In this document: piece after piece, positions 4,472 through 19,773 of the stretch | Position numbering within the stretch: the stretch's first letter is position 1 | Layout: each line of letters opens with the position of its first letter | DNA from: a virus | Direction: 5' to 3' (one strand) | Virus record (IMG/VR): IMGVR_UViG_3300046559_000054 | Location: 1 to 20,054 of that record | Length of the DNA: 20,054 nucleotides | The notes under the pieces: generated by a model | What the model was told of the DNA's origin: nothing | What the model saw: only the letters and a program-made list of their open reading frames with translations | The model's database searches: none | Translations under genes and position numbers: made by a program

Positions 4472-5068
4472 ATGTACGAAGCACTGGAAAGTGACACGCA
4501 GAATCCGCGCGCCGGCCTGTATGTCGAGTTCTTCCCCGGCAAGCGTTACAACGAATTCCGCAGCAAAGAGAGCGGCAAGCCTGAGTTCGATCTGGTCCCG
4601 ATGATTAAGAAGTGCAATCCGGGCGATCCGACGAACATCATCGAGCGTCCAGCACGCGACGACGACAAAGACGAATGGCCGGGTCAGTGGGCAGCCTATG
4701 AGCGCCGCACGTCCTACCGTCCGGAATCGGGTACGCCGGTTGAAGACTGGCCGCGCCTGGATGTCGCGACCGTCGCGAAGTTGAAGGCGCTCGAGTTCCA
4801 TACGGTCGAACAGTTGGCCGAGTGCTCGGATCAGCAATGCCAGCGTATCGGTATGGGCTGCTACGAGCTGCGCACGAAGGCGGCTGCATATATCGCTGCG
4901 GCGAAAGACTCCTCGCTGGCTCAGAAGCAAGCCGAAGACCTCATGCTGCGCAATCAGGAAATCGAAGACCTGAAGGCAACGGTCCTGCGCCTCGGCTCGC
5001 AGTTGGAAGCAATGCAAGCGATGGACCCCGAAAAGCGCGGCCCCGGCCGCCCGCGTAAAGAGGCGTAA
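4472..5068 (+). CDS. Head/tail-region protein with C-terminal AT-hook-like motif
   Basis: This 198-residue protein is charged and soluble-looking. The first ~95 residues have no recognised domain. A segment near 95-132 (VATVAKLKALEFHTVEQLAEC and onward) resembles a helix-hairpin-helix fold. A short coiled coil follows, and the last ten residues, KRGPGRPRKEA, match an AT-hook: a Gly-Arg-Pro core with basic flanks that inserts in the minor groove of AT-rich DNA. Proteins of this kind occur in podovirus structural clusters between capsid and tail-adaptor genes, function unknown. DNA binding during packaging or head completion is a guess. The ribosome site AGGAG lies about 7 bases before the ATG, and the gene starts 25 bases after the terminator T-run. 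Confidence 0.6.
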   Translation: MYEALESDTQNPRAGLYVEFFPGKRYNEFRSKESGKPEFDLVPMIKKCNPGDPTNIIERPARDDDKDEWPGQWAAYERRTSYRPESGTPVEDWPRLDVATVAKLKALEFHTVEQLAECSDQQCQRIGMGCYELRTKAAAYIAAAKDSSLAQKQAEDLMLRNQEIEDLKATVLRLGSQLEAMQAMDPEKRGPGRPRKEA

Positions 5069-5070
5069 AT

Positions 5071-5994: not shown

Positions 5995-7571
5995 CAAACA
6001 TTACAGGTATTGCAGCAGCGGCCCAACGGAAACGTCGGCAGGCCCAAGGGCAGCGCTCGACTACGGTTAACCTGCCGGCGCCTATTGGCGGATGGAATGC
6101 GCGTGATTCGCTCGCGCAGATGGCGCCCGAAGATGCGGTAACGCTCACGAACTGGTTTCCAACGACTTCCGATGTCATGGGGCGCGCAGGCTTCACGAAG
6201 TGGGCGACTGGGTTTGCGGGCGACGTGAACACAGTAATGCCGTTCAACCCCGCGACGGGCATTAGCAAGCTATTCGCGGCATCCGGTGCATCGATCTATG
6301 ACATCAGCGGCGGCGGTGCGATCGGTGCGCCTTCCGTGACCGGATTCACTAACGACAAGTGGTCATACACCAATTTTGCGACGAGCGCCGGCCCGTTCAT
6401 GTGTCTTGTGAATGGACAGGACGGGTATTACGTCTATAACGGCACGACGTGGCAGAACGTGACTTCTGGTTCAACGCCTATCTCTATCACCGGCGTCAAT
6501 CCGAACAATCTGTCGTTTGTCGAAGTCTTCGCGTCGCGCGTCTGGTTCATCGAAAAGAACACGTTGCACGCTTGGTATTTGCCTGTCGGCCAGGTCGGCG
6601 GTGCGGCATCGCAGTTCGACTTCTCGCCTATTTTCAAGCGCGGCGGCTCGCTCGTCGCAATTGGCGTCTGGACTGTCGACGGCGGCGAAGGAATGCAGGA
6701 CTATCTAGCTCTCGTGACCAGCGAAGGTGAGGTTGCGATTTATGGCGGCACTGACCCATCTCAGGCATCCACCTTCGCGAAGAAGGGCACATATCAGGTC
6801 GGTACGCCGATGGGCTTCCGATCGTTCATGAAGTACGGCGGGGACTTGCTCTATATCGGCAAGGATGGTCTCGGGCCGATCTCAGCGCTGCTCGGTTCAA
6901 CTCGCGTCAACAGCAATTTGAACCTGACCGGAAAGATTCAGGGCGCCATTTCTCAGGCGACAAGTCTTTATCCGAATAACTACGGATGGTGTCTCGTTCT
7001 GTTTCCGCTAGAAAACATGCTGATCCTGAATATTCCGGTTGGGTCAGGGCAGCAACAGCAATATGTGATGAACACGATTACCGGAGCCTGGTGCAACTTC
7101 ACCGGATGGAACGCGAACCATTGGGAACGCTACAGAGATCAGATTTACTTTGCCAGCACGGGCTTTGTCGGTCTTGCATGGAACGGCCTGTCGGATAACG
7201 GCACGAACATCAACACAATCGCGCAGCAGGCATTCAACGAGTTCGGAACGCCGCTTCAGAAGCGCTTCACGATGATGCGTCCGATCCTCTGGACGAACGG
7301 CTCGCCGGCTTTGTCGGCAGGGATCAATGTCGACTATGACCAGAACGTCCCGCAATCGACGCTTAACTATTTGCCGCTCAATTTTGGGCTGTGGGATACG
7401 GCTATCTGGGACTTGGGAACGTGGGGCGGAAATCTTCAGATCGCAAAGGCATGGCAGGGCGTTACTGGGGTCGGCATGACCGGTTCTCCGACGCTTAAAG
7501 CCGCTGTGAATGGTACTGAAACGCATTGGGCCGCGTCCGACATCGTATTCGAAACTGGCTGGACAGTTTAA
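5991..7571 (+). CDS. Tail nozzle/hub-like protein
   Basis: This 526-residue protein starts at a GTG overlapping the upstream stop (GTGA). After a short basic N-terminus comes VNLPAPIGGWNARDSLAQM, a typical opening of podovirus tail-hub proteins. The body is beta-rich with repeated W/Y/G-containing strands (GQDGYYVYNGTTWQNV, HAWYLPVGQVG, GDLLYIGKDGLGPIS, HWERYRDQIYFASTG), which suggests a propeller-like fold. P22 gp10 and T7 gp12 build the short tail tube below the portal and hold packaged DNA. The same role is inferred here from size, texture and position directly after the adaptor-like gene. It overlaps the GNAT gene by TAATG. Confidence 0.68.
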   Translation: MTNITGIAAAAQRKRRQAQGQRSTTVNLPAPIGGWNARDSLAQMAPEDAVTLTNWFPTTSDVMGRAGFTKWATGFAGDVNTVMPFNPATGISKLFAASGASIYDISGGGAIGAPSVTGFTNDKWSYTNFATSAGPFMCLVNGQDGYYVYNGTTWQNVTSGSTPISITGVNPNNLSFVEVFASRVWFIEKNTLHAWYLPVGQVGGAASQFDFSPIFKRGGSLVAIGVWTVDGGEGMQDYLALVTSEGEVAIYGGTDPSQASTFAKKGTYQVGTPMGFRSFMKYGGDLLYIGKDGLGPISALLGSTRVNSNLNLTGKIQGAISQATSLYPNNYGWCLVLFPLENMLILNIPVGSGQQQQYVMNTITGAWCNFTGWNANHWERYRDQIYFASTGFVGLAWNGLSDNGTNINTIAQQAFNEFGTPLQKRFTMMRPILWTNGSPALSAGINVDYDQNVPQSTLNYLPLNFGLWDTAIWDLGTWGGNLQIAKAWQGVTGVGMTGSPTLKAAVNGTETHWAASDIVFETGWTV

Positions 7572-8020
7572 TGAAGAGAATTGTTTGGGATCAGCCGGAG
7601 CGCGTTATGCGCTTCGTAGCGGCGAAGGTTGGCGAGAAGGAATTACTCGGATACAGCGCGATCGGGCTTGAGAGGGACGGCGAGCTAGTTGCCGGCGTGC
7701 TCTACGAGCAGCACAACGGTCCTAACGTGATGATGCACGTCGCATCGGACGGCTCTCGGCATTGGATGACGCCAGCATATATGGCTGCATGCTTTCGCTA
7801 CCCGTTCCTTCAACTCGGAGTAAATCGCGTGAGCGGCCTTGTGCGCGCTGACAACAAAGACGCGCAGCGTTTCGATGAAGCACTTGGATTCAAACCTGAA
7901 GGCGTATTACGGGAAGCCGCAGCAGATGGCACCGATCTGATCCTGTACGGGATGCTTAAACGGGAGTGCAGGTATCTAGATGGGAAATATCATGACGCGC
8001 TGCTCAAGGAAAGAAAATGA
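7571..8020 (+). CDS. GNAT-family acetyltransferase-like protein
   Basis: This 149-residue protein starts at the ATG that overlaps the upstream stop (TAATG at 7569-7573). An in-frame start further upstream at 7526 would overlap the nozzle gene heavily and is rejected. The C-terminal half has the GNAT texture: a helix, PFLQLGVNRVSGLVRADNKDAQ, then the RFDEALGFKPEGVLREAA motif that follows the acetyl-CoA site, then a final strand LILYGMLKREC. The classical Gln/Arg-x-x-Gly-x-Gly/Ala pyrophosphate loop is not obvious, so activity is uncertain. Acetyltransferases in the tail-gene region recur in podoviruses and their substrate is unknown. Its overlaps on both sides indicate co-expression with virion proteins. 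Confidence 0.72.
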   Translation: MKRIVWDQPERVMRFVAAKVGEKELLGYSAIGLERDGELVAGVLYEQHNGPNVMMHVASDGSRHWMTPAYMAACFRYPFLQLGVNRVSGLVRADNKDAQRFDEALGFKPEGVLREAAADGTDLILYGMLKRECRYLDGKYHDALLKERK

Positions 8021-9642
8021 ACGCTTTTAAGCTTCTTAAATATCTGTTTGTTGACGCCTTTACGTTCTATGGCGGAGGTGGAAAGGGCGGTGGCTCCGCT
8101 CCGTCTGCGCCTGACCCGAACGTCGTAGCAGCAGCCACGACTAAGACGAATACGGATACGGCAGCCTTCAATAAGGCGCTTAACCTCAATAACTACTCGA
8201 ATCCGTTCGGGTCGCAGCAGACCACGCAGACCGGTACTGATCCGAATACGGGCGCACCGATCTACAACACGAATGTTTCGGCGAATCCTCAACTTACCGG
8301 AGCATTGAACGGGCTTCTCAGCCAAGCTAGCCAAAGCGGAAATATCAATAGCAATGCACTGAATGGGCTTTATGGCGTCAATAACCTATATGCCGGCTCT
8401 GCGAACAATTTCGGCAATCTCGCGCAATCTCAGTTAGGCCTTAATGGCAGCATAGCGGCCCTTCAACCACAGTATCAGAACATTTCGAACGGCATTGGCG
8501 GTCTGCAAAATCAGTTCGGTGCTGTTAACAACAATTTTGGGAACCTCGCCAATCAATATCAAGGTATCTCGAACAATATCAGCAACAGCGCGGGGTCCTA
8601 TTCCGGACTTAACTCGCAACTTTCCGGTTTGGGCGATCAACTAAGCCAAGGGCAGGCACAGCAAGCAGGACAGCAAGGTCAAAATGCTGCGTATGCAGCG
8701 CAGAAGCAATACCTTGATCCGCAGTTCTCACAGCAAGGCGAATCGCTCAGCGCGCAGCTCGCAAACCAAGGGCTGACGCCGGGTTCGGAGGCATACAACA
8801 ATGCCATGACGAACTTCAATAATCAGAAGCAGCAAGCCTATAGCAATGCGCAGAACCAAGCGATCATGACTGGATCGCAGATCGGCGCTCAGAACCTACA
8901 GAACCAAATTTCCGGCATTAATACGCAGGCAGGTCTGCTCGGGCAGCAAGGCCAAAATATTGGCAATACGATTAATGCCTATGGCGCGCAGGCTGGCGCC
9001 CTCGGCGGAGCTGGTAATGCCTACGGCCAGCAAGGGAACGCGCTGAGCAACCAGGCTGGTTTGTACGGGCAACAGGCCGGTCTCGTCGGCAATCAGGCTG
9101 GCTTGTTCGGTCTGATGGGGAACAATTATCAATCTGCAGGTGGCCTATATGGTCAGCAGGCCGGGACATATGGCAGCCAAGCCGGTCTGTACGGACAAAT
9201 GGCCGGAGTCGGGAATATGCCGTATTCGCAACTCGGCAGCATCGCGAGCATGATCCCTGGCTATTCCGGGACGGGTCAAAGCAGCGCAGCGCCTGCCGAT
9301 ATCGCCGGACTTTATAACAACCAGTATCAATCGCAGCTTGCGAACTATAACGCGCAGCAGCAGAGCGCGAACAATACGCAGAGCGGGATCATGGGCCTTG
9401 GCAGCGCGGCGATTATGGCGTCTATGTTCTCGGATCGTCGCCTCAAGCGTTCGATAAAGCGTGTTGCAACGTGGGCGAACGGACTTGGCGTCTATACCTA
9501 TCGTTACAAGTGGGAAGCGAAGGGCGTCCGACATCTTGGCTTCATGGCCGACGAAGTACGGAAGATCGCGCCATTTGCGGTGCTGCGTGACACGAACGGC
9601 TTTGACCGTGTGAATTATCAACTGGCAGGGAGCGCGCGATGA
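8017..9642 (+). CDS. Gln/Asn/Gly-rich virion protein with S74 intramolecular chaperone end
   Basis: This is a 541-residue protein. Its N-terminus holds a Gly-rich GGGGKGGGSAPSAPDP stretch and NNYSNPFGSQQTTQTGTDP, an opening recurrent in podovirus tail/virion proteins. The middle ~400 residues are extremely rich in Asn, Gln, Gly, Ala and Ser and include clear 7-residue repeats (N/Q-Q-A-G-L-aromatic/V-G, residues 345-365). Residues 471-541 form a Peptidase_S74 domain: SDRRLKRSIKRV, then VYTYRYKW, then HLGFMADEVRKIAP. In this family cleavage occurs before the Ser of SDxRxK, assisted by the Lys, and both residues (Ser472, Lys477) are present. The domain normally trimerises fibres and then leaves. 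Ribosome site AAGGA; the start overlaps the GNAT stop (ATGA). It may be a tail fibre/needle or an internal virion protein. Confidence 0.75.
   Translation: MNAFKLLKYLFVDAFTFYGGGGKGGGSAPSAPDPNVVAAATTKTNTDTAAFNKALNLNNYSNPFGSQQTTQTGTDPNTGAPIYNTNVSANPQLTGALNGLLSQASQSGNINSNALNGLYGVNNLYAGSANNFGNLAQSQLGLNGSIAALQPQYQNISNGIGGLQNQFGAVNNNFGNLANQYQGISNNISNSAGSYSGLNSQLSGLGDQLSQGQAQQAGQQGQNAAYAAQKQYLDPQFSQQGESLSAQLANQGLTPGSEAYNNAMTNFNNQKQQAYSNAQNQAIMTGSQIGAQNLQNQISGINTQAGLLGQQGQNIGNTINAYGAQAGALGGAGNAYGQQGNALSNQAGLYGQQAGLVGNQAGLFGLMGNNYQSAGGLYGQQAGTYGSQAGLYGQMAGVGNMPYSQLGSIASMIPGYSGTGQSSAAPADIAGLYNNQYQSQLANYNAQQQSANNTQSGIMGLGSAAIMASMFSDRRLKRSIKRVATWANGLGVYTYRYKWEAKGVRHLGFMADEVRKIAPFAVLRDTNGFDRVNYQLAGSAR
9049..9111 (+). 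repeat. Heptapeptide-coding 21-bp repeats, three copies
   Basis: Three consecutive diverged 21-base units encode NQAGLYG, QQAGLVG and NQAGLFG. Related units recur downstream (GGLYGQQAG, SQAGLYGQMAG, to about 9212). The DNA has drifted while the peptide pattern is kept, which suggests selection on the protein rather than recent slippage. Confidence 0.8.
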
Positions 9643-9989
9643 ATTGGGGCGGAACGATTCTTGGAAGTTTGGCCGGTGGCTTGGGTGGTGGCCTTCTTGG
9701 TAGCGGTGCTCTCGGTGGTGAGGGCAACACGTCAAAGGCCATCATGGGCGCTCTGGCTGGTGGCGGTTTGGGTGGACTCGCTGGGGCTGGTGGAATGCCG
9801 GCTACTACAAGCGGCGTTGCCGGCATGCTTCCCGCACTGATGATGGGAAAACAGCAGCAACAGCAACCCGCAGCGCAGCCACAAGCGGCCCAATTCGCAA
9901 TGCCGCACATGCCAGGCGTTCAGTATGGTGCTAGCTCGCCGGGTTATCAGAACGCGCTTGCACAAGCGCTCGCTCAATATCAGGGGTAA
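9639..9989 (+). CDS. Glycine-zipper protein
   Basis: This 116-residue protein starts at an ATG overlapping the upstream stop (ATGA). Residues 4-52 are a dense run of Gly with Leu, Ala and Ile in GxxxG spacing (TILGSLAGGLGGGLLGSG, IMGALAGGGLGGLAGAGG), which is a glycine-zipper pattern able to pack in or across membranes. A run of five Gln (residues 72-76) and a Pro/Gln/Ala-rich tail follow. Its position between the repeat protein and the large ejection-type proteins suggests a minor virion component that may enter the cell envelope during DNA delivery, but that is inference. I know of no named family for it. Confidence 0.6.
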   Translation: MNWGGTILGSLAGGLGGGLLGSGALGGEGNTSKAIMGALAGGGLGGLAGAGGMPATTSGVAGMLPALMMGKQQQQQPAAQPQAAQFAMPHMPGVQYGASSPGYQNALAQALAQYQG

Positions 9990-9992
9990 AGC

Positions 9993-11852
9993 ATGGCCGG
10001 TGCTACTAGCGGAATGACGATCCTTCCTCAGTTCCAGGGAGACGCGTATTCGCTTCAGAATCAGCAGGCGCTCGCGCAAGCTCTGATGCAGCAGTCGTTC
10101 CAGCCGCAAAACACGCAAGCGGTTGGATCGGGCCAATATACGGTCGTTCCGAAATACAGCGGCCTGGGCGGACTAGCGCAGCTTGGACAAGCGCTGATTG
10201 CGGCGAAGATGCAAAACAACGTGGCGCAGGGGTATGGTCAACTCGGCCAGAACCAATGGGCGGCGCTTACTGGCTCGCCGGCTTCGTCCGGTGTCGGTGG
10301 CTCGGGTAATGGCTCCAGCGCGTCTGGCTCAAGCCCGCAGGCGCTTGCGTCGGCACTTGGTGGCGGTGGCTCGTCTGCTCAGCCTGCTCCGCCACAAGGC
10401 GGATTGCTGTCGCCTGGCGGCCCGCTGAATCCTAACGGCATCCCGACGACGGCCGCGGCGATGATGTATATGTCTCCTGAAGGCCAAAAGGAACTTTTCA
10501 AGTCGACGGCATCGGCATATGCGCCGACTGCGGCGACGATGCAAGCCCGTCAAGGTGGTTTCGACACTGCGCAGGCGAATCAGGCTCAATTCAGAAAAGA
10601 CAGCTATGTTGCGCCGATCACCGGCACTGGCATCATGCGCAACCCGTTCAATCCGTCGCAACCTGTCGCGTTCAATCCTGAAATCCCGGCCGGCGCGCAA
10701 CCGCTGTTCGATGCATCGGGCAACGTCGCCAAGGTGCAGCCGATCCAAGGCGCGCAAGGCGTCATGCAGGGCAACGCCGCGGCGAGCGCAGCCGGTGGCG
10801 CTCAGTTCAAGCCCGTTCAGGTGTACAACCCGCAGACGCAGCAAATGGAATTCTCGAACGAGGCGCAGGTTACGAATCCGACCGCTCCGGCAGGGATTCG
10901 CAACAACAACCCCGGCGCGATGATGCCGGGTGGCAAGCTCGCGCAATATCCGGATATGCAAACGGGGCTTGCAGCGCTGGACGGGAATCTCGCGAGCTAC
11001 GGCAAGCAGGGCGTCAATACCGTTGCCGGCGTGATCTCGAAATGGGCGCCTCCGAACGAGAACGATACGCAGGCATATATCAAGGACGTTTCGCAACGTC
11101 TCGGAATTCCGCCTAATCAGAAAATCGACCTGACAAATCCGCTTCAGCGCCAGGCTCTGTCGACGGCGATCGCGTTGCATGAGAATGGGCCGTCTGGGGT
11201 GTTCGGCGGTGGTGGGGCTGCTCCGTCCGGCCGTGCTGCGGCGAGTGCTCCGATGGGCGCGCAGGCGAATGCGGAAGCGCTGGTGAAAGGTCAAGTCGAC
11301 ACGATGCAGAAGTCGTATCAGAACCTGCAGACGGTTCGCTCTGGTGCGCCGGCTGCACTGCAGGATGTCGACAACATGAAGAAACTGGCACAAGGCGCCT
11401 CCATCGCCACAGTCGGTCCGGCCGGCGCAAAACTGGCTGGGCTTTTCAGCGCAGACGCGGCTGAGTACGAGAAATCGCGCGATAACCTCGTCACTAACTT
11501 GGGCTCGCAGCTCGGCATCAACTCCGACGCTGCGCGCGATCTGGTCTACGGCTCGATCCCTTCGTATGGCGCCCCAAAGACAGCCGTTCAGAATGGACTT
11601 GATACCCTCCGCGGACAGATCCAAACGCGACTCCTGAAATCTGACTATCTCTCCGATGCGTATTCGTCTGGGGACGCCAAGGCATACAACCAGCGCGAGA
11701 ACCAGTTCGACCAGAAGATTACGCCGGCAATCGCGAACGTCGTCTCTATGCCATCCGGACCGGAACGAGCAGCGGCCCTTCAGGCGGTCGCTAAAAACCC
11801 GACTATGCGGGCTCGGCTCGAGTGGGCTGCACAGAACGGGATCCTGAAATGA
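9993..11852 (+). CDS. Ejection-type virion protein with murein hydrolase-like domain
   Basis: This 619-residue protein has low-complexity Gln/Gly/Ser-rich sequence to about residue 140 and a mixed region to ~290. A compact domain at about 300-400 follows: AGIRNNNPGAMMPGG, QTGLAALDGNLASYGKQG, VISKWAPPNENDTQAYIKDV, QALSTAIALHENG. This NNPG...TGL...YG...KWAPPxENDTxxYI pattern is typical of lytic-transglycosylase-like domains annotated as structural protein P5-type in phage virions. It would open the peptidoglycan for DNA entry. The rest (~420-619) is helical. Ribosome site GGGG about 6 bases before the ATG; the stop overlaps the next ATG (ATGA). The hydrolase assignment rests on pattern memory and catalytic residues were not mapped. 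Confidence 0.7.
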   Translation: MAGATSGMTILPQFQGDAYSLQNQQALAQALMQQSFQPQNTQAVGSGQYTVVPKYSGLGGLAQLGQALIAAKMQNNVAQGYGQLGQNQWAALTGSPASSGVGGSGNGSSASGSSPQALASALGGGGSSAQPAPPQGGLLSPGGPLNPNGIPTTAAAMMYMSPEGQKELFKSTASAYAPTAATMQARQGGFDTAQANQAQFRKDSYVAPITGTGIMRNPFNPSQPVAFNPEIPAGAQPLFDASGNVAKVQPIQGAQGVMQGNAAASAAGGAQFKPVQVYNPQTQQMEFSNEAQVTNPTAPAGIRNNNPGAMMPGGKLAQYPDMQTGLAALDGNLASYGKQGVNTVAGVISKWAPPNENDTQAYIKDVSQRLGIPPNQKIDLTNPLQRQALSTAIALHENGPSGVFGGGGAAPSGRAAASAPMGAQANAEALVKGQVDTMQKSYQNLQTVRSGAPAALQDVDNMKKLAQGASIATVGPAGAKLAGLFSADAAEYEKSRDNLVTNLGSQLGINSDAARDLVYGSIPSYGAPKTAVQNGLDTLRGQIQTRLLKSDYLSDAYSSGDAKAYNQRENQFDQKITPAIANVVSMPSGPERAAALQAVAKNPTMRARLEWAAQNGILK

Positions 11853-13552
11853 GTGCACTTGACGACATCATCGCGCGCGACTCAGCGCCGCAGCAAGCGT
11901 CGCCGCTCGATGCAATCATTGCGCGTGACTCTTCCGCACAAGCGCAACCCGCTGCGCCATCAACCCCTGCTGCGCCTCCCCAGCAAGGACAGCAGCCGGG
12001 GATGCTTGCATCGCTCGGCGCTGGCCTTGGTCATGGTTTCGGTAGCACGGTGCTCGGTGCTCAGGAGCTACTAGGCAAGGGGCTCAGCGCGGTCGGATCT
12101 GACCATGTTGGGCCGTGGCTCGTGAACGATGCGCAGCAGGGCGTGAAGAACTTAGCTTCACAGAATCAGCCTTATGCCTCTGCCAACCCGATTACGAACA
12201 CGGTCGGCAATATCGGCGGCAATATTGGCGCTACTGCTCCACTTGCTGCTTTGGCTCCCGCTGCAGCGACGGCTAGCGCGCTTGGCCGCATTGGGACCGG
12301 TGCTGCACTGGGCGCTACCAGTGGTGCGATGGCGCCGTCAGATAGCAGCAATCCGGACTACTGGGGCCAAAAGCTGAATCAAGCCGGTACTGGCGCCGCG
12401 TTCGGTGCAGGTGGATCCGTTCTGGCGAACGCGCTGGGCAAGGTGATTACTGGCGCGACCGGCACGGCTCAGCGGCAACTCGCAGATGCCGGCGTGACGA
12501 TGACGCCCGGTCAAGCGCTTGGCGGCGGATTTGCACGCACTGAGGAAAAGCTGACAAGCGTTCCTATCCTCGGGGACATGATTAAGAATGCGCAGCAGCG
12601 TTCAGTCCAAAGCTTCAATAAGGCAGTCTATAACGACGTGCTTGCGCCGATTGGAAAGACCTATGATGGTCCCGTAGGTCAAGATGCCGTCCAAGCCGTC
12701 AAGTCGCAGATCAGCAACGCATATGATGGCGCGCTTTCGAATATGACGTTCAAGGCGACCGACCCGCTGTTTCAGAAAGACATCTCGAATCTTACCGGCC
12801 TCGCTCAGAATCTCCCTGGCCAGCAACAGCAGACGTTTATGAACGTCCTGAAGACTCAAGTCTTTGGAAAGCTCGGACCGCAGGGAAACATGGACGGCCA
12901 GACGCTTAAGGGCGCGCAGAGCGAGCTTTCACGCATTGCCAGCGGCTATTCTAGCGACGCGTCATTCGATCAGCGCCAGTTGGGCGCGGCGATCGGTGAA
13001 GTCAAAAACGCGATCGATAGCTCGCTGACGCGATATAACGCACCAACGGACGTGCAGGCTCTTTCTGCTGCCAACGCGGCATATGCGAAGTTTGTCCGAT
13101 TGCGAGCTGCAGCCGGCTCGCAAGGTGCGATGAATAACGATGGCATCTTCACTGCAGGTCAATTGCAGAACGCCGTCCGAAGCGCAGACAAGTCGGTAGG
13201 GAAAGGAAACGTCGCGACCGGTAACGCTCTTATGCAGGATCTGTCGAGCGCCGGCCAACACGTGTTGGGGTCTAAATATCCTGACAGCGGAACGCCGGGG
13301 CGCGCGGCTTTGATGGGTCTGCTCGGCGCGCTAGGTGGCGGCGGTGCGGCTGCGGCTGGTTTCGGTGCTCCGACGTTGGCCGCTGGCACTGCTGCGACAC
13401 TCGCTGCTCTACCTTATACCGGACTAGGCCAAAAGGCGGCGCAAGCGGCTCTTATGGCTCGCCCAGCGTTTGCCCAACCGGTAGGCCAGTTCGTTCAGAA
13501 AGGTGCGTCTCCCTTCGCGGCTGCGCTTGGCGCGGCTCTCGTTAATCACTGA
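11849..13552 (+). CDS. Large ejection-type virion protein with duplicated N-terminal motif
   Basis: The ATG at 11849 overlaps the upstream stop (ATGA), giving 567 residues. The in-frame ATG at 11822 lies inside the upstream gene and is less likely. Residues 4-12 and 20-28 are near-identical (LDDIIARDS, LDAIIARDS). Pro/Gln-rich linker follows, then Gly/Ala-rich segments that could insert in membranes (about 52-71, 120-158 and 484-527). The middle (~220-460) is charged and helical, with QQRSVQSFNKAVYNDVLAPIG and QTLKGAQSELSRIASGYS. Podovirus ejection proteins are large, helical, envelope-crossing proteins placed late in the tail cluster, so that role is inferred. No enzyme motif is seen. A terminator follows about 85 bases downstream. 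Confidence 0.62.
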   Translation: MSALDDIIARDSAPQQASPLDAIIARDSSAQAQPAAPSTPAAPPQQGQQPGMLASLGAGLGHGFGSTVLGAQELLGKGLSAVGSDHVGPWLVNDAQQGVKNLASQNQPYASANPITNTVGNIGGNIGATAPLAALAPAAATASALGRIGTGAALGATSGAMAPSDSSNPDYWGQKLNQAGTGAAFGAGGSVLANALGKVITGATGTAQRQLADAGVTMTPGQALGGGFARTEEKLTSVPILGDMIKNAQQRSVQSFNKAVYNDVLAPIGKTYDGPVGQDAVQAVKSQISNAYDGALSNMTFKATDPLFQKDISNLTGLAQNLPGQQQQTFMNVLKTQVFGKLGPQGNMDGQTLKGAQSELSRIASGYSSDASFDQRQLGAAIGEVKNAIDSSLTRYNAPTDVQALSAANAAYAKFVRLRAAAGSQGAMNNDGIFTAGQLQNAVRSADKSVGKGNVATGNALMQDLSSAGQHVLGSKYPDSGTPGRAALMGLLGALGGGGAAAAGFGAPTLAAGTAATLAALPYTGLGQKAAQAALMARPAFAQPVGQFVQKGASPFAAALGAALVNH

Positions 13553-13621
13553 CTTTATCGCGGGGATTGCCCCGACGACTGCTGATGAAATCGCCAGTTG
13601 CCAAAACTGCGCATTAGTCAT
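13424..13621 (-). CDS. Possible small reverse-strand protein overlapping the ejection gene end
   Basis: The 65-codon reverse-strand frame starts at an ATG preceded by GAGGGAG with a 5-base spacer, a very good ribosome site. The N-terminus, MTNAQFWQLAISSAVVGAIP, looks like a natural small membrane or amphipathic protein, and its first ~23 codons lie in the otherwise non-coding gap 13553-13621. The rest is basic and antisense to the ejection-protein gene, where a frame could be a by-product of GC-rich coding. No promoter was identified. It may be a real small gene, a remnant of one cut by recombination, or chance. Confidence 0.3.
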   Translation of the reverse strand: MTNAQFWQLAISSAVVGAIPAIKSVINESRAKRSREGRRTFLNELAYRLGKRWASHKSRLRRLLA

Positions 13622-13636
13622 TTCCACTCCCTCAAG

Positions 13637-13658
13637 GGCCGCCCAGTGCGGCCTTTTT
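13637..13658 (+). terminator. Rho-independent terminator before the tail fibre gene
   Basis: GGCCGC (13637-13642) pairs with GCGGCC (13648-13653) around the 5-base loop CCAGT, followed by five T. It lies in the 122-base gap between the ejection and tail fibre genes. Apart from a second small hairpin, CGGGG/CCCCG at 13561-13574, and the reverse-strand frame, nothing else is visible in the gap. Confidence 0.85.
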
Positions 13659-13674
13659 CATTTTAGGTGACGCG

Positions 13675-14844
13675 ATGCCATTTAACGGCGCAGGAACGTT
13701 CACGTTGGTGGCCGGCAATCCGGTCATCACCGGGACGACGATTAGCTCAACCTGGGCGAACAATACGCTTTCCGACATCACTGCGAACGGGCTGACTAAC
13801 TGCCTTACTAAAGACGGCCAGCAAACGCCTACGAATAATATCCCAATGGGCAACTTCCGGATCACCGGATTGGGTGCTGGGACCGCTAGGACCGATGCGG
13901 CCCAAGTTGGGCAGGTTCAAGACGGGGCACTCACCCTGCTTTCGTCCGTATCTGGATCAAACACTATTACAGCAAACACTTCTCCGGTCTTTACTGCCTA
14001 CGCCACCGGACAGGAATTCTCTTTCGTTGCTGCGGCTAATAATACTGGTGCAGTCACTCTGAACATTAATTCTATCGGAGCGAAAGCAATCACGCGAAAC
14101 GGCACCGATCCACTTGCTCAAGGAGACATTTTTTCCGGGGCGATGGTTTCGGTTTTGTTCGATGGGACTCAATTTCAACTTCAGAACACCCCAACGACAG
14201 GGCGATTTTTAGGTGTTCAAGTGTTCCTCGGAAATGCGACGTACACGCCAACATCTGGAATGAAGACCGTTATTTTTGAGGTTCAAGGCGGCGGGGCGTC
14301 AGGTGGAGGAGCAACGCTTCCGAGTAGCGGTAACGTTTCATGTGGAGCGCCAGGAACCTCCGGCGCCTATGCGAAAGGCATTTTCTCATCGGCCTCTGTT
14401 GGAGCGTCTCAAGCAATCACGGTTGGCGCGGGGGCATCCGGCCAGACAGGTGGAGGCGGGCTTGCTGGCGGAACCTCTTCGGTCGGCGCATTGATTTCAG
14501 CAAACGGCGGCGTTGCCGGGTCAATGCTAAATAACGTTGGTGCCGGCGCACTTAATGGGAATGGGAATTTTCAAAATACCGTCAGCGGTGCGAATATTTT
14601 GACTTGTCCGGGCGGCGCCGAAAACGTATCAATTGCCACGACTACAGTATTTGGTTTTGGTGGCTCTGGAGGACGCTCATTGTTTGGAGTAGGAGGGGTT
14701 CCGGTTGCATACAACTCGGTCGGAGGGGCAGGTATTGGTTACGGTTCAGGCGGCAGCGGGGTAGTTGCAAATCAATTCCTTCCTGGAAGCATTGCTGGTG
14801 GTGCTGGCAAGTCAGGAATCGTGCTCGCTTGGGAGTACGCATGA
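13675..14844 (+). CDS. Tail fibre protein with glycine-rich C-terminal domain
   Basis: This 389-residue protein has a beta-rich N-terminal part, including FRITGLGAGTARTDAAQVGQ near 62-81, which is a common fibre motif. A module at about 100-165 (FSFVAAANNTGAVTLNINS, then DIFSGAMVSVLFDG) matches fibre stalk repeats. From about residue 200 on, Gly dominates (FEVQGGGASGGG, GAGASGQTGGGGLAGG), and the protein ends KSGIVLAWEYA, like the glycine-rich receptor-binding domains that end many phage fibres. It therefore probably contacts the host surface. Ribosome site AGGTGA precedes the ATG. No variable-region/template-repeat pair or reverse transcriptase is visible. The gene sits between two terminators and has AT-richer stretches than the ejection genes. 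Confidence 0.78.
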   Translation: MPFNGAGTFTLVAGNPVITGTTISSTWANNTLSDITANGLTNCLTKDGQQTPTNNIPMGNFRITGLGAGTARTDAAQVGQVQDGALTLLSSVSGSNTITANTSPVFTAYATGQEFSFVAAANNTGAVTLNINSIGAKAITRNGTDPLAQGDIFSGAMVSVLFDGTQFQLQNTPTTGRFLGVQVFLGNATYTPTSGMKTVIFEVQGGGASGGGATLPSSGNVSCGAPGTSGAYAKGIFSSASVGASQAITVGAGASGQTGGGGLAGGTSSVGALISANGGVAGSMLNNVGAGALNGNGNFQNTVSGANILTCPGGAENVSIATTTVFGFGGSGGRSLFGVGGVPVAYNSVGGAGIGYGSGGSGVVANQFLPGSIAGGAGKSGIVLAWEYA

Positions 14845-14882
14845 TGGATGCCAATTATGCGGTCGTTGGATCTCTCACTTAG
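14841..14882 (+). other. 13-codon leader-like ORF, possibly a truncated gene start
   Basis: An ATG overlapping the tail fibre stop (ATGATGG) opens a frame of 13 codons, MMDANYAVVGSLT, ended by TAG just before the terminator. The NYAV start recalls small accessory proteins encoded behind tail fibres, so it could be a cut-down remnant. It may equally be chance. Confidence 0.2.
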
Positions 14883-14890
14883 AAAACAAT

Positions 14891-14914
14891 AGCCGCCTAT
14901 AGAGCGGCTTTTTT
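14891..14914 (+). terminator. Rho-independent terminator after the tail fibre gene
   Basis: AGCCGC (14891-14896) pairs with GCGGCT (14904-14909) around a 7-base loop, followed by a run of T to 14914. It separates the tail fibre gene from the lysis cassette and ends only 11 bases before the next ATG, so some read-through or a nearby promoter is needed for the lysis genes. Confidence 0.85.
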
Positions 14915-14925
14915 CGGGGCTTGGA

Positions 14926-15255
14926 ATGCCAATACACGAAGAAATAGCAGCGGCGATTCATGCCCTTTCGATCTCGATGGATCAGAGGCACAGCGAAAAC
15001 ATCACGGCTCAATCTGTAACGGAGCGGAAAGTGGACGAAATCATACGCAGGGTCGACGACCTGCATAAAGCCTTCCCTGGCGGCGATTGGGAAGGGCATC
15101 GACGTTATCACGAAGGCTTGATTCGGAAGATGGAAGCTCGGACCGAGTTCTACGAAGACTTGCGGTCCGAGCTCGCCAAGAAAGGTATCTGGGCCGTTCT
15201 GGTGGTTCTCGGCCTCGCTATGTGGCAATACTTGAAAACCAAGGTGACAACGTGA
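14926..15255 (+). CDS. Lysis-cassette protein with coiled N-terminus and C-terminal membrane segment
   Basis: This 109-residue protein has a soluble, charged N-terminal part (EIAAAIHALSISMDQRHSEN, then ERKVDEIIRRVDDLHKAFP), then GGDWEGHRRYHEGLIRKME, and one hydrophobic segment at about 88-102 (GIWAVLVVLGLAMWQYL) near the end. A single C-terminal membrane anchor next to a holin suggests an antiholin, a second holin or a membrane-linked lysis regulator. Similar GHRRYHE proteins are encoded near phage lysis genes without known function. The stop overlaps the GTG of the next gene (GTGA). The ribosome site is weak (GGGG upstream). Confidence 0.6.
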   Translation: MPIHEEIAAAIHALSISMDQRHSENITAQSVTERKVDEIIRRVDDLHKAFPGGDWEGHRRYHEGLIRKMEARTEFYEDLRSELAKKGIWAVLVVLGLAMWQYLKTKVTT

Positions 15256-15470
15256 CGCTTTCCCCGAACTGGCGAACTACCTACAAACGATATTCGGTGA
15301 TCTCTTTGGCCGCAAGTACGTTCCTCCAAGTAGTGTGGGGCGTCGTACAGAATCCCCCGATGTGGGCGGTTCTGGTGGCCAATGGGCTTATCGGTGGACT
15401 CGGCCTTATTGGCTCGTATCTCGCGCAACCTGAAGTGATCGGCGGCGCTGATGCCAACTCTACCGAATAG
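15252..15470 (+). CDS. Holin-like membrane protein
   Basis: The frame starts at GTG 15252, overlapping the preceding stop (GTGA), and gives 72 residues. It has a basic N-terminus (NWRTTYKRYS), a first membrane segment at about 15-31 (VISLAASTFLQVVWGVV), a short NPPM turn, a second segment at about 37-60 (WAVLVANGLIGGLGLIGSYL) and a polar tail. Two membrane segments with both ends probably in the cytoplasm fit a class II holin, which permeabilises the inner membrane at the time of lysis. Because the next gene encodes a SAR endolysin, it may be a pinholin. The call relies on topology and on its place directly before the endolysin. Confidence 0.72.
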   Translation: MTLSPNWRTTYKRYSVISLAASTFLQVVWGVVQNPPMWAVLVANGLIGGLGLIGSYLAQPEVIGGADANSTE

Positions 15471-15963
15471 GCCGGGTAAGAAGTCGCTAGCGGTCGTTAT
15501 CGGCACGGTCGCGGCGTCGATGGCTATCTCGCTGACATCTTCGCAGGAAGGCGTATCGCTTCGGCCGTATAACGACAAGCTGGCCGGTGATCTGCAGACC
15601 GTGTGCTTTGGCGAAACGAACGTTCAGATGCGTGCTTATACGCTCGACGAGTGCAAAGACATGCTGAGCGACAGCCTCTCTGGCTACGCGATCGAAGTGC
15701 GGAAGATGACGCCCGGATTCGACGATCTGACAGACGGGCAAAAGGTCGCGGTGATTGACCTAGCCTACAATATTGGCCTTGGCAACTACGGCGGATCGAC
15801 GCTCCGCAAGCGCTACATCGCGAAAGATTTTCCGGACGCCTGCTCAGAATTTGCCAAATGGCGCTTCGTGCGCGGCCGTGATTGCGCGATCGCATCCAAC
15901 CAATGCGGCGGGATCTGGAAGCGTCGCCAACTCGAACGCAACGCATGCAGGGGTGAACAGTGA
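15451..15963 (+). CDS. SAR endolysin, GH24 lysozyme family
   Basis: This 170-residue lysozyme starts at an ATG inside the holin gene (20-base overlap). After a basic PGKKS comes a weakly hydrophobic Ala/Gly/Ser/Thr-rich segment at 13-29 (LAVVIGTVAASMAISLT), typical of a signal-anchor-release domain: the enzyme is exported by Sec, held inactive, and freed when the membrane is depolarised. The catalytic block follows as Glu33, Asp42 and Thr50 (QEGVSLRPYND, then LQTVCFGET). The Asp-Thr spacing is 8 rather than the 6 of T4 lysozyme. The rest (FDDLTDGQKVAVIDLAYNIG, GIWKRRQLERNAC) is canonical GH24. It cuts the glycan strands of peptidoglycan. The stop overlaps the Rz start (GTGA). Confidence 0.9.
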   Translation: MPTLPNRPGKKSLAVVIGTVAASMAISLTSSQEGVSLRPYNDKLAGDLQTVCFGETNVQMRAYTLDECKDMLSDSLSGYAIEVRKMTPGFDDLTDGQKVAVIDLAYNIGLGNYGGSTLRKRYIAKDFPDACSEFAKWRFVRGRDCAIASNQCGGIWKRRQLERNACRGEQ

Positions 15964-16496
15964 GCCCGTTCCTTATTACCGGCCTCGCTGCCGGCGCGGT
16001 TGGCGTGGCGCTCGGCTTCGGCACCGCACATACTATAGACGGCCGCACGCTCGCTAGAGAGCAGGCAGCCCATCAGCAGATGGTCGCTCAAATCAACGCG
16101 GAATCAGCCAAAGCTCTTTCTGCGGCGCTTGCCAAGCAACAGGCGGCGGAGAGCGACATAGCCGCGATACAGCAGAAATTCACAGATGAGGTTTCTAAAC
16201 ATGCACAAGACTCCCTCGATTTTCGCGCTCGCCTGTCTGCTGGCACTGACCGCGTGCGCGTCCGGATCGCAGGTTGTTCTGCCTCCGTCCCAGGTGAAAG
16301 CGCCGCCTCCGCCAGCAGCTCTGATGGTCCCGCCGCCTACGGAGACATCTACGGCCCGACTGCAAGCGGCATTTTCAAAGTAGCTGCCGACGATCAGGCG
16401 GAGATTGACAAACTCTCCGGGTTACAGGCATACGTGCGCGCATTGCAGGAGCAGGGTTTTATTGCATCCCCTTCCGATCATACCGGTTTCCGTTAA
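15960..16496 (+). CDS. Rz: Rz-like inner-membrane spanin
   Basis: The frame starts at GTG 15960 overlapping the endolysin stop and encodes 178 residues. An N-terminal membrane segment at about 4-22 (FLITGLAAGAVGVALGFGT) is followed by a long Ala/Gln/Glu-rich coiled coil (AREQAAHQQMVAQINAESAK, then KQQAAESDIAAIQQKF). This is the topology of Rz, the inner-membrane half of the spanin that fuses the inner and outer membranes in the last step of lysis. The C-terminal part includes a Ser/Ala-rich stretch read in the other frame by Rz1. The gene is followed immediately by the tailspike ATG. The call rests on topology, order and the embedded Rz1. Confidence 0.85.
   Translation: MSPFLITGLAAGAVGVALGFGTAHTIDGRTLAREQAAHQQMVAQINAESAKALSAALAKQQAAESDIAAIQQKFTDEVSKHAQDSLDFRARLSAGTDRVRVRIAGCSASVPGESAASASSSDGPAAYGDIYGPTASGIFKVAADDQAEIDKLSGLQAYVRALQEQGFIASPSDHTGFR
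16201..16383 (+). CDS. Rz1: Rz1-like outer-membrane spanin lipoprotein, nested inside Rz
   Basis: In another frame wholly inside Rz, a 60-residue protein starts MHKTPSIFALACLLALTAC. It has a signal peptide and the lipobox LTAC with the acylated Cys at 19. The mature part is short and Pro-rich (LPPSQVKAPPPPAAL, VPPPTE), which is the hallmark of Rz1. It would sit in the outer membrane and bind Rz across the periplasm. The ATG at 16201 has a GAGG site 10 bases upstream and is preferred to the in-frame ATG at 16186, which overlaps that site. Confidence 0.88.
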   Translation: MHKTPSIFALACLLALTACASGSQVVLPPSQVKAPPPPAALMVPPPTETSTARLQAAFSK

Positions 16497-17831
16497 ATGA
16501 CATTCCAACTGAGCGGAGCAGAAAGCATATCGCTATGCAGTCCGGGTCTGCGCTCGTTGACCGCGCAGGATTTAGCGACGTGGATTCTTTCGAAGGCTTC
16601 CGGTACAAACAGACCTACCGTAATAGACTATGGTGCCAAAGGAGACGGCATAACGGACGATAGCGCCGCGTTTCAGGCCGCGATCAATAGCGGCTTCGTC
16701 CGGATTCCGAAGACCGCCGCAGGCTACATGATCCGTCATCCCCTGAACGCAACGAACTTGGATCAGTTGACCATCGAAGGTGATGGCATGATTGCGCCAG
16801 ATTGGGGATTGGTCTATATTCTGCCGCCCTCGGGGAGTACGCTACTCGCTGGAACGGGCGGTGTAGTGCTCGACGTTACCGGATCAAACAACATTACGAT
16901 GCGGAATTTCAACATCTCCGCGCTCGGCGTTTCAGCCAATCCCTCATCGGTCGGTATCATGGGTGGGACTTCTACCAATCAGCGTCTTGGTGCGCCTGGT
17001 GGTTCGAACCTAATCATGGAAAACGTCGCAGTGTGCATGCAGAATACCGGCGCGTCGATCCCGATCTATCTTAATAACGTCAATATCTCACGCTTCAATA
17101 ACGTCACGACGGCCGGGAAGTATGGCGTCATACTATGCTCTAACAACGTCCTGAATCTGGCCAGTCCATTTACTACCTTTGGGCCAGTTGTACAGAGCGA
17201 CGGGAACACGTTCGTAGGCTGCTGCTTATTGAATTATGGGACGAATCCTGCTCTGTGGTTGGAGTATGCCAACGACAATGATTTCGTCCAGCTCTATACC
17301 GTTTATGTGGGAATCGGGCAACCGTCCTATACCGGATGCGGATACGCTATCCAGATTGATAACTGTGTCGACCTGCGCATCAAGGTCGAGAACGATTATT
17401 TCCCGTACCTGCTCTATTTGAACGGAGCCAATGAACTATTGGACATTTCCGGTATCTGCTTTCCTGGTGCCAATCCGCCGTCAGGTGGTCAACCTGCCAT
17501 CGCATTTTTTAACGGCTCAACGGTCAAGAATTCGAATTTCAACGTCATTACGCCGGGAACGGGCTATGCGGCTGGAACGTATCTATATGCGACCAAAGGC
17601 ACCGCCCCGACAATGCAGCAGTTCAGAAATTGTGAGTTCTTGTTCGACACCGCGGCGACTTCGAATGTGGCCTACTTTAACGTCACGGCAGATTCTCCGG
17701 CCCCTTTTTTCGACCTGCGATTCCACGGCGACGTGGATTCCTCAGGCGTAAATCTGATGGTCGGAGGAGTCACCGCAACATCGGCAAAGCAGCGCTACTT
17801 CATGAACGGCCTAAGGCATGGAACGGCATAG
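16497..17831 (+). CDS. Tailspike, pectate-lyase-type beta-helix
   Basis: This 444-residue protein has a Pectate_lyase_3-type start at about residues 40-66 (VIDYGAKGDGITDDSAAFQAAI), the usual entry into a right-handed beta-helix. Repeating strands follow (NNITMRNFNISALGVS, NLIMENVAVCM, IYLNNVNISRFNNVTT, NTFVGCCLLNYG). Such spikes bind and often degrade capsule or LPS polysaccharide. Catalytic residues cannot be assigned by eye. The part before the helix is only ~38 residues, so any virion-binding domain is very short. It starts directly after the Rz stop (TAA-ATG) with no visible ribosome site, suggesting coupling to the lysis genes. Strong similarity is not recalled beyond residue ~70. Confidence 0.78.
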   Translation: MTFQLSGAESISLCSPGLRSLTAQDLATWILSKASGTNRPTVIDYGAKGDGITDDSAAFQAAINSGFVRIPKTAAGYMIRHPLNATNLDQLTIEGDGMIAPDWGLVYILPPSGSTLLAGTGGVVLDVTGSNNITMRNFNISALGVSANPSSVGIMGGTSTNQRLGAPGGSNLIMENVAVCMQNTGASIPIYLNNVNISRFNNVTTAGKYGVILCSNNVLNLASPFTTFGPVVQSDGNTFVGCCLLNYGTNPALWLEYANDNDFVQLYTVYVGIGQPSYTGCGYAIQIDNCVDLRIKVENDYFPYLLYLNGANELLDISGICFPGANPPSGGQPAIAFFNGSTVKNSNFNVITPGTGYAAGTYLYATKGTAPTMQQFRNCEFLFDTAATSNVAYFNVTADSPAPFFDLRFHGDVDSSGVNLMVGGVTATSAKQRYFMNGLRHGTA

Positions 17832-18043
17832 CATCGTCTAATACAGCGTTGTAAGTCATTGTTTTTATTGGTGAGTGTATGTGCATTCTTGGGCCATCAC
17901 AAGGCCAACCAAAAATAGCATAGTGCTTTGATTTTGTTAATGAAAACGTGTTTTGTAAGGCTTTACGCGGGAGGCAATGTAAATCGGCCGCAAAGCCTTA
18001 TGCAGTCAGGACTCGTCTACTATCGTTGCAATCGCGTCTAGAA
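17832..18043 (+). other. AT-rich convergent gap; candidate attP region
   Basis: No gene is visible in these 212 bases between the convergent tailspike and integrase modules. TAAGGCTTT (17956-17964) and AAAGCCTTA (17992-18000) form a perfect 9-bp inverted repeat with a 27-base spacer. The left half is AT-rich. Neither arm is followed by a proper T-run, so a terminator is not clear. Position next to int makes it the likely attachment region, but the core cannot be defined without a bacterial partner sequence. Confidence 0.4.
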
Positions 18044-18292
18044 TCACCAACTTGGATCGCCTTCTCGGAACTCGCCGCACCACGCTGATTTAGCCACTCT
18101 CGGCCAGACTCCAACACCATCTTTGTTCGCAGTTGGCGGGCTTCGATAGCACACTAAAACCTGCGTTGTTTCGTATGGGTTAAAGCCAATCCCCGGGAGA
18201 GAATGATGTGGAACCTCAACGATGCGATCTTCCGGCCGCCGAAATTTGCATATCTCACATCGATCGCCTTTTCTTTCAACAAATGAAAACAT
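18044..18292 (-). CDS. Four-cysteine small protein coupled to integrase
   Basis: The start codon is the ATG that overlaps the integrase stop (TAATG), giving 82 residues. An upstream in-frame start at 18325 is not needed. A ribosome site GGAGGG lies 8 bases before the ATG. Conserved-looking features are Cys12 and Cys15 (RCEICKF), Cys48 in VCYRSPP, then VWPRV and Cys72 in WCGEF. The order CxxC, C-x-R-x-P-P, W-P, W-C-G-E-F recurs in small proteins of phages and proteobacteria that I cannot tie to a function. The four Cys could bind zinc or iron. Expression is expected to follow integrase. A role in recombination control, or simply a passenger gene, is possible. Confidence 0.72.
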   Translation of the reverse strand: MFSFVERKGDRCEICKFRRPEDRIVEVPHHSLPGIGFNPYETTQVLVCYRSPPTANKDGVGVWPRVAKSAWCGEFREGDPSW

Positions 18293-19404
18293 TACGCCAT
18301 CCCTCCTGGTTTCACTTCGACCCACTCCGCTCCTCGCACATCCCGGTACATTTCGGTCATGCTGGCCGACTTATGTCCAAGGATCGCCTGTGCGAACTCG
18401 GGGCTGTATTGCTCAGCGTAAAGCCGTGCTGCCAGGCTGCGTAGCTCATGAAACGATGCCGGTGTCTTCCCTTCTTCCCACTTCACGCCGGCCGCTGTTC
18501 TAGCTAGACGAAAGCCTCGCGTGAGCGAGTCAGGGTCGACCGGATAACCCGGCTTCTGATTCCCGACGACCCGCGCATGGTGAATCATCGATTTCGACAC
18601 GACCTTATCCCGGCAGCGCTTGATTACGTCTTCCAGAGATAACCCGATCGCGTCCATTCGAACGGCCAGCGGAATCCGAAGCTTCATTTTCGTCTTCTGC
18701 TGAGCGACGAACAGAAAGCCGTCTTTCGCGTCAGAGAAAAGCATGTTGGCAACGTCTTCCCGACGCTGGCCCGTCAACAGGGCTAATTCGAAACTGCGCG
18801 CGACCCACGGCTCCATTTCCAAAGCTTTCGCGTAGATCAATTTGAACTCGGGAAGCATGAGTCTGGATCGCTCGACCGTAATTTCTGGCGTTCTGGTGAC
18901 TGATACAGGATTCTTTCCAGAATCGATAATCCCTTTCGTTTCAGCCACGCGCATCATGTCGGAAAGTGTCTTCCGGGCAAGCTTCGCCATATTCGGCTTA
19001 TCGATCCCGTCCAGAAACTCGGCTATCTCGCGCGTTTGTATCTTCCGAAGGTGCTTATCAGAGAACGGTGCTTTCAATACAACACGAAGGCCAGCCCGTA
19101 CCGTCTGCATGGTGCTCGGCGTCGGATTACGAGTTTCCTCGTAAATCTTCTGGTACTCGGTCGACCATTCCAGCAGCGTTTTTTCGTCAGGAGCAGTCAT
19201 TCGCTGCACGACTGAGCGATAACCGCGGCTGTTTTCCAATTCAGCATTGGCGGCTCGCGCTTCCCCGAACGCTTTTGCCTGATCGCGTCCGATCCCGTAG
19301 TCTTTCTTCGTGTCGGGATTTCGGTAGTAGAAATACCCTGCGCTGTTCTGATACAGATTGGCCGGCCAGTGCCGGCGCTTCGCTTCCCTACGCCGTGCGG
19401 CCAT
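18292..19404 (-). CDS. int: Lambda-type tyrosine integrase
   Basis: This 370-residue recombinase joins attP and attB. The ATG at 19404 is chosen: it has a GGAG site 8 bases upstream and gives the usual basic start MAARRREAKRRHWPANLY. An in-frame ATG at 19437 lacks such a site. The arm-binding N-domain (1-60) is followed by a core-binding SAM-like domain (~75-170) and the catalytic domain. Arg214 (TGQRRED), Lys237 (QQKTKMK), His319 and Arg322 (FHELR), His344 (LGHKS) and the nucleophile Tyr353 (EMYRDV) are all present with spacing close to lambda Int. It overlaps the excisionase gene by 17 bases and the four-Cys gene by TAATG. Confidence 0.95.
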   Translation of the reverse strand: MAARRREAKRRHWPANLYQNSAGYFYYRNPDTKKDYGIGRDQAKAFGEARAANAELENSRGYRSVVQRMTAPDEKTLLEWSTEYQKIYEETRNPTPSTMQTVRAGLRVVLKAPFSDKHLRKIQTREIAEFLDGIDKPNMAKLARKTLSDMMRVAETKGIIDSGKNPVSVTRTPEITVERSRLMLPEFKLIYAKALEMEPWVARSFELALLTGQRREDVANMLFSDAKDGFLFVAQQKTKMKLRIPLAVRMDAIGLSLEDVIKRCRDKVVSKSMIHHARVVGNQKPGYPVDPDSLTRGFRLARTAAGVKWEEGKTPASFHELRSLAARLYAEQYSPEFAQAILGHKSASMTEMYRDVRGAEWVEVKPGGMA

Positions 19405-19600
19405 TCCCCAGTCTCCGTTGCATCTCGCCAGCGTCATCGTAATAGACGGCGTGTGGCTCGACGAAATATTTCGTGCCGCATTTTATCGGCTGCGGGACGA
19501 TTCGCCCGTTTTTCCGCCAGTTGAGCAGCGTGTTTCGGTGCGGCTTCGAGCTGCCAAACAAGGCTTCGGCCCATTGGTCGAGAGTGACTAGCTTCGCCAT
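19388..19600 (-). CDS. xis: Excisionase, lambda Xis-like
   Basis: This 70-residue protein reads MAKLVTLDQWAEALFG, then NTLLNWRKNGRIVPQPIKCG, then KYFVEPHAVYYDD. This is the winged-helix layout of lambda Xis, with a conserved TL-x-x-W start, a recognition helix, a wing near PxPxKxG and a closing Ala-Val. Xis bends DNA and directs integrase toward excision. The ATG at 19600 has AAGGAG 8 bases upstream and overlaps the preceding stop (TGATG). A GTG one codon earlier is a possible but worse start. The gene overlaps int by 17 bases, so the two are made together. Confidence 0.88.
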   Translation of the reverse strand: MAKLVTLDQWAEALFGSSKPHRNTLLNWRKNGRIVPQPIKCGTKYFVEPHAVYYDDAGEMQRRLGNGRTA

Positions 19601-19773
19601 CACGATTTCTCCTTTTCTCTCTGCTCTACCGCCCGCGCATATGCCTCGCGCAACTCGCCAAAACTTCCACGGCGAGTGTTGAAAGGCACGACAGCCGGTT
19701 CTTCGTATCCTTCCAGATAGGCATCTGCTGCCTGGATCAGGTTTCTTACTGCTATCAGGAGTTCGTCGTTCAT
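19600..19773 (-). CDS. Small acidic protein of the integration operon
   Basis: This 57-residue protein starts at an ATG overlapping the upstream stop (ATGA at 19770-19773). A longer in-frame start at 19872 would lie almost entirely inside the preceding gene. It has a helical first half (MNDELLIAVRNLIQAADAYL), an acidic YEEP segment and a Lys/Glu-rich C-terminal helix. I recognise no family. Position before xis suggests a small phage accessory gene expressed with the recombination genes. Confidence 0.6.
   Translation of the reverse strand: MNDELLIAVRNLIQAADAYLEGYEEPAVVPFNTRRGSFGELREAYARAVEQREKEKS

Follow-up and report, generated by a model that had tools for sequence, protein, structure and literature searches.

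A four-cysteine gene at the end of a phage integrase gene: candidate cargo from a widespread family of probably HiPIP-like mini-proteins

Results

The integrase end of the window

The DNA analyzed here, called the window in what follows, is a viral record of 20,054 bases. We are concerned with a small gene, P0001, and the features on both sides of it:

19388..19603, minus strand: excisionase (phrog_629, 6.9e-15); its 3' end overlaps the start of int
18292..19404, minus strand: tyrosine integrase (int), 370 amino acids (PHROG integrase families, best 1.3e-52)
18292..18312, minus strand: junction; the last int codons (KPGGMA) with AGGAGGG, then the TAATG overlap
18044..18292, minus strand: four-cysteine gene P0001, 82 amino acids plus stop (profile match of 42.3 bits); WPRVAKSAWCGEF
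17832..18043, no strand: att-like non-coding region, common to int relatives (alignment of 7 sequences)
17956..18000, no strand: inverted repeat TAAGGCTTTACG / CGCAAAGCCTTA, downstream of P0001, with 21 nt separating the arms

The two genes upstream of P0001, integrase and excisionase, are both identified by PHROG match. The integrase has an alternative in-frame ATG further upstream, at 19437, which would give a protein of 381 amino acids; among the matches listed (40 of 115), it is 38.6-40.7% identical to phage records.

P0001 reads on the minus strand, which the original prediction had left unstated, from 18292 down to 18047, with its stop codon extending to 18044. Its cysteines are C12, C15, C48 and C72, and the frame has the 82 residues and the CxxC, CYRSPP and WCGEF motifs that the original prediction had described. 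The junction had also been read correctly there, as an ATG overlapping the integrase stop behind a strong GGAGGG site: the int stop TAA and the ATG of P0001 have one base in common (gcgTAATG), and AGGAGGG ends 8 nt 5' of the ATG, within the last int codons.

The non-coding region 17832..18043 is a putative att region. In the alignment of 7 sequences it contains TTCTAGACG-type repeats; the word ACTTACARCGC is found in all seven sequences, and [AG]CCTCCCGCGTAAA in five of them. The inverted repeat at 17956..18000 could be a terminator or an element stabilizing the int mRNA. Its fold has a z of -1.84, 7 of 200 shuffles doing as well, and it is missing from the output of the terminator scan. By eye, the same inverted repeat is seen in a related locus, L129, and partly in another, L123. 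In the window as a whole, promoter and terminator scans stayed at chance level, Rfam gave no match at gathering scores, and the tRNA scan found none; a tRNA was found in one of the 10 int-relative loci scanned, of 14 such loci. A megablast of the whole window against annotated phages gave no match.

A widespread family of four-cysteine proteins

Taken as a single sequence, P0001 matches no Pfam family at E up to 10, nothing in PHROGs or NCBIfam, no PDB sequence at E up to 10 and, by tblastn, no annotated phage at E up to 1. Against viral contigs it finds one sister contig. Two other members of the family described below were compared with annotated phages by tblastn: L085 gave no match at E up to 0.01, and L110 gave one match, which is unannotated.

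Relatives were collected with a DNA pattern for WPxVx4WCGE[FY], which occurs in at least 120 stretches of viral contigs. Among the matches listed, an upstream CxxC is present in 118 of the 120 contigs, the remaining two being cut at the contig start, and these 118 contigs form 58 clusters at 65% core identity. The family can be written CxxC..CRRxxP..WPxVxxxDWCGE[FY]. In an alignment of 40 rows, P0001 and 39 other clusters, the four cysteines, the proline after the third cysteine, WP, V and WCGE are invariant, in line with the conserved cysteine and Trp-Pro pattern that had been predicted; of these, WPxV and WCGE had been part of the search, and CxxC had guided the trimming. The third cysteine with a proline within six residues, which the viral search did not demand, is present in all 57 other representatives. 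P0001 itself has the four cysteines, the proline after the third and WPxVx4WCGE, the last of these being the search key.

The same DNA pattern occurs at 81 loci of bacterial and archaeal genomes. When the matches were parsed, in 80 of these loci, 75 of 81 passed a test for the four cysteines; the six failures comprise two cut sequences, two apparent members whose spacing or residues differ, and two apparent chance matches, both in Thiomonas. By record title, the family is found in Alphaproteobacteria, Planctomycetes, Lentisphaeria, Burkholderiales and others.

Two tests bear on P0001 as a member. A profile of 76 relatives, from which P0001 was left out, gives P0001 42.3 bits; over 384 frames of the window, the runner-up after P0001's own frame scores 7.5 bits. 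Because P0001's C-terminal motif had served to find the relatives, a separate test addressed the N-terminal half, with a profile built from 57 phage cluster representatives truncated ahead of WP: residues 1-62 of P0001 score 15.9 bits, a value that none of 1000 shuffles reached (shuffle maximum 10.4). When the alignment of 76 rows is used for this test, the margin is narrow, 11.9 against a shuffle maximum of 11.8. By these profiles, P0001 is a real gene and a member of a widespread, unnamed family. Its loop between C15 and C48 has 32 residues; in 192 relatives, redundant ones counted, the median is 12 and the maximum 32.

The absence of a recorded function, also predicted, extends to the libraries searched: Pfam, PHROGs, NCBIfam, PDB and annotated phages. 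PHROG 15838 has no assigned function; with a threshold of E 0.1 it recognizes 26 of 40 family members, the best at 3.1e-6, and does not match P0001 itself. The strings DWCGEF, WCGEF, DWCGEW and WCGEY were not found printed in the open-access literature searched.

Some members have a larger architecture. In L021, L025 and L079, the four-cysteine domain comes first in a longer protein, 142-171 amino acids in all, and is followed by an extra C-terminal domain, which in L025 looks Ig/TIG-like by eye. In L090 and L104, a longer open frame has a second cysteine-rich segment (CKDCECW..CPDKC) upstream of the four-cysteine domain.

Comparison with iron-sulfur mini-proteins

The family was compared with 11 HiPIPs using hhalign. 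The A4 profile, of 76 members, reaches a probability of 61% and a score of 26.2 with all four cysteines aligned, and the A1 profile a probability of 42%; the aligned segments are CxxC, GxC and V-x3-[GD]-W-C. When columns were shuffled with the cysteines kept in place, under two schemes of 150 shuffles each, the A4 score was reached by none in either scheme, and the A1 score by one in one scheme and none in the other. Control comparisons gave 0.7% and 1.0% for a DksA-type zinc finger, and 0.8% (A4) and 0.3% (A1) for rubredoxin (13 rows). P0001 alone shows no similarity to HiPIP by hhalign (probability 0.2%), and no significant match to the HiPIP profile PF01355.

Single members give scattered matches, not all of them pointing to HiPIP. 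With a threshold of E 0.1, 6 of 40 members match Pfam HIPIP (best 7e-4) and 2 of 40 match BssC_TutF (PF08201; best 4.9e-4); one member of 40 matches BssB_TutG (PF18512; E 0.036), and there are single matches, again one of 40 each, to Pollen_Ole_e_1 (0.0083), the recombinase zinc ribbon PF13408 (0.014) and DUF5032 (0.088). Among 76 members, with a threshold of E 0.01, five match HIPIP, two BssC_TutF and one Pollen_Ole_e_1. NCBIfam gave two weak single-member matches, 0.019 and 0.057. Among the PDB sequences listed for the A4 profile, 6 of 8 are HiPIPs, at E 0.28-0.92, none significant alone; for the A1 profile one of the 4 listed is a HiPIP, and RACK1 and a kinase-labelled chain rank higher. 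AlphaFold models were weak (pLDDT 69 and 59), and Foldseek searches with these two weak models returned no HiPIP: 15 chance-level matches from one and none from the other.

The order of elements is the same in PF01355 as in the family, CxxC .. GxC .. V-x3-[GD]-W-C-x-x-aromatic, and the spacing from V to W-C is identical. The family differs from HiPIP in its additional motifs, CRRxxP and WPxV, in a longer third segment, and in the position of the aromatic residue after CxxC, which is +2 in the family and +3 in HiPIP.

Glycyl radical enzymes have HiPIP-like [4Fe-4S] small subunits that bind a large partner, one of them described with a CX2CXnCXnC motif (PMC12358834). Those of the BssB/BssC type (PF18512, PF08201), from fumarate-adding glycyl radical enzymes, are small and HiPIP-like with a [4Fe-4S] cluster, as we propose for the P0001 family; a difference is that they are known as parts of a catalytic complex. 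The PF08201 profile gave zero matches over 369 genomes, where its controls were equally zero. From the family profile comparison with its controls, the P0001 family is probably a distant relative of the HiPIP/benzylsuccinate-synthase-type [4Fe-4S] mini-proteins.

The slot between int and the att-like region

Over the records examined, a family gene lies beside int in two cases only, the window and one sister contig. Over 14 kb the sister contig, which appears under the labels L002, L028 and L128, has 94.7% identity to the window; within 10731-18655 a single base separates the two, insertions in the sister being left out of the count. Since the two share this near-identical block, the position of P0001 beside int counts as one event. 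Within 4731-18655, identity to L028 is ~81-99% per 500-base block before 10731 and nearly complete after it; window and L028 are a recombination mosaic.

The ends of the int genes differ in what follows them. The common tail in relatives is WVEVKLAV and a stop codon, then directly the shared att-like region (L124, L125, L127, L129); the tail is WVEVKLAG in L218 and L219. The window's int ends in WVEVKPGGMA, and the four-cysteine gene follows: compared with near relatives, its last codons differ and carry the Shine-Dalgarno sequence, and the P0001 ATG overlaps the stop. In L123 and L126 the tail is WVEVKLGANGG, followed by an ORF whose GTG overlaps the int stop, with AGGAG six bases before the GTG. 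This ORF shares the design of P0001, with its altered int tail, embedded Shine-Dalgarno sequence and overlapping start. Its product, encoded at L123:6109-6687 and at the corresponding place in L126, looks by eye like a fusion of an Int N-terminal-like domain and a GIY-YIG-like nuclease. Two different cargoes of the same design in near relatives suggest, on a small sample, that the slot is real.

With the A1 profile, none of the six other close int relatives (77-99% identity, viral contigs) has a family member at this locus. In the genus of Paraburkholderia dilworthii WSM3556 (L156), an int relative is present at E up to 1e-50 in at least 14 of 144 genomes; by the same profile, none of these 14 relatives, 35-66% identical, has a family member within flanks of 1.5 kb. 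Four-cysteine members are found at E up to 0.001 in at least 6 of 299 genomes of the family to which this strain belongs. An int query in genome contigs gave 31 stretches, none of them confirmed.

The converse tally starts from the four-cysteine gene. A match to PF00589 is present in 7 of the 58 cluster-representative records, one of them below the curated cut-off; it is adjacent to the four-cysteine gene only in the sister contig, and lies ~6.5-29.5 kb away in the other six. This tally counts tyrosine recombinases only, and the 51 records without a match, many of them fragments, are silent on distance. In two Burkholderiaceae genomes, among the matches listed in a 20-genome search, an integrase lies ~15 kb and ~51 kb from the four-cysteine gene. 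A recurrent linkage of the family to tyrosine recombinase genes was not found in the 58 representatives or at the 6 + 14 int loci.

Neighbours of other members

Tight packing is common in the four-cysteine family, and the partner gene varies: in 25 of the 55 representatives with an upstream ORF, as delimited by a simple ORF caller, the distance from the four-cysteine gene to a co-directional neighbour is between -20 and +6 nt, and in ten of these it is -4 or -1. Partners among the 25 that have a PHROG name are portal (L008, L012), primase/helicase (L011, L073), ParB/methyltransferase (L007, L021), RecE-like exonuclease (L057), terminase (L097) and dehydrogenase (L035). The tally of neighbours covers 25 of 117 families, and single integrase neighbours are possible among the rest.

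In two sphingomonad-type genomes (L154, L209), the four-cysteine gene is seen directly 3' of a short ORF that looks, by eye, like an AlpA/excisionase-type HTH protein; in L154 a primase-polymerase-like ORF comes after it. These two loci are possible satellite elements.

Discussion

On balance, if by no wide measure of confidence, we favour reading P0001 as cargo in the slot between int and att, encoding a HiPIP-like mini-protein that is not a recombination factor. This reading draws on the int tails, the slot that is empty in relatives, the GIY-YIG-like ORF found in the same slot, the block shared with the sister contig, the 14 Paraburkholderia loci lacking a family member, and the tight packing of 25 of 55 members behind differing genes. 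In this phage lineage, a moron-like gene would have entered the space that separates the 3' end of int from the att region. The direction, an insertion in the window and not a loss in the relatives, is suggested by six close and 14 more distant relatives, compared without a tree.

Ribosomes finishing Int would then re-initiate on P0001, which would be made whenever int mRNA is translated, and the gene would stay beside int in the prophage. From the family profile comparison, C12, C15, C48 and C72 may hold a [4Fe-4S] cluster, with the V-x4-W-C-x-x-aromatic turn closing the pocket around it and with an extra loop of 32 residues between the second and third cysteines of the predicted HiPIP-like fold. 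Cluster and function are both predicted: the protein would most likely be a small accessory subunit or a redox module that attaches to a partner, in the way that the HiPIP-like small subunits of glycyl radical enzymes bind their large partners.

The order xis-int-att in the window is that of the int-xis modules of lambdoid phages, and the window's Int is related to those of HK97 and 434. Conversion genes adjacent to int/attP are likewise cargo at the int/att end. The arrangement differs: P0001 is placed between int and the att-like region, its start overlapping the int stop, whereas int and gtrA flank the SfIV prophage (PMC3851460).

A CxxC followed by two single cysteines is also a common zinc pattern. 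P0001 could have the same cargo history and encode a structural zinc-binding (C4) mini-protein, a module binding proteins or nucleic acids; this is a possibility that we hold to be tentative. The weak match of one member in 40 to the recombinase zinc ribbon is on its side, as is the position of some relatives next to primase/helicase, ParB/methyltransferase or exonuclease genes. However, the pattern ends in a single cysteine within WCGEF, with no second CxxC, and the family profile resembles HiPIP and neither of its two controls, the DksA-type zinc finger and rubredoxin. On these controls, the zinc-finger reading ranks below the HiPIP-like one. A gene for lysogenic conversion or against competitors, such as superinfection exclusion or defence, using the four-cysteine fold, would suit the presumed position at the edge of the prophage; however, PADLOC matches none of 40 members at E up to 0.01 and some members lie directly behind portal or terminase genes, and we consider this reading rather unlikely.

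The original prediction had raised the chance of a role in integration, excision or lysogeny. P0001 would then be a partner of Int, a factor for directionality, stability or regulation kept beside int for that purpose. The signals for translational coupling at the junction and the position between int and the att-like region speak for such a partner. Against it, none of the 6 close and 14 Paraburkholderia int relatives carries the gene in the stretches examined, in the six other representative records with a PF00589 match the gene lies kilobases from it, a different ORF occupies the same slot in L123 and L126, and the window already has an excisionase. We regard it as very improbable. Much the same low standing goes to a combined reading, a large, unnamed superfamily of HiPIP-like [4Fe-4S] mini-proteins of phages and bacteria, with one of them here translated together with Int, so that iron or oxygen status, sensed through its cluster, could influence the integration decision or some other partner produced alongside. 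The coupling signals and the conservation that the prediction described stand, and its functional link to int is not supported: the pattern search with a tally of int adjacency, proposed as a check, found adjacency, among the 58 cluster-representative records, only in the sister contig. The sequence half of the prediction's own refutation test, which asks whether homologs are scattered without a link to recombinase genes, points against an integration role.

These findings matter at two levels. For the family, the pattern of four cysteines is a recognizable signature for a widespread group of small proteins without known function, and the comparison with HiPIP gives it a testable chemistry, iron-sulfur instead of the expected zinc. 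For the phage, the junction illustrates how cargo may be loaded compactly by a temperate phage, the ribosome-binding site of a gene placed behind int being supplied by the last codons of int.
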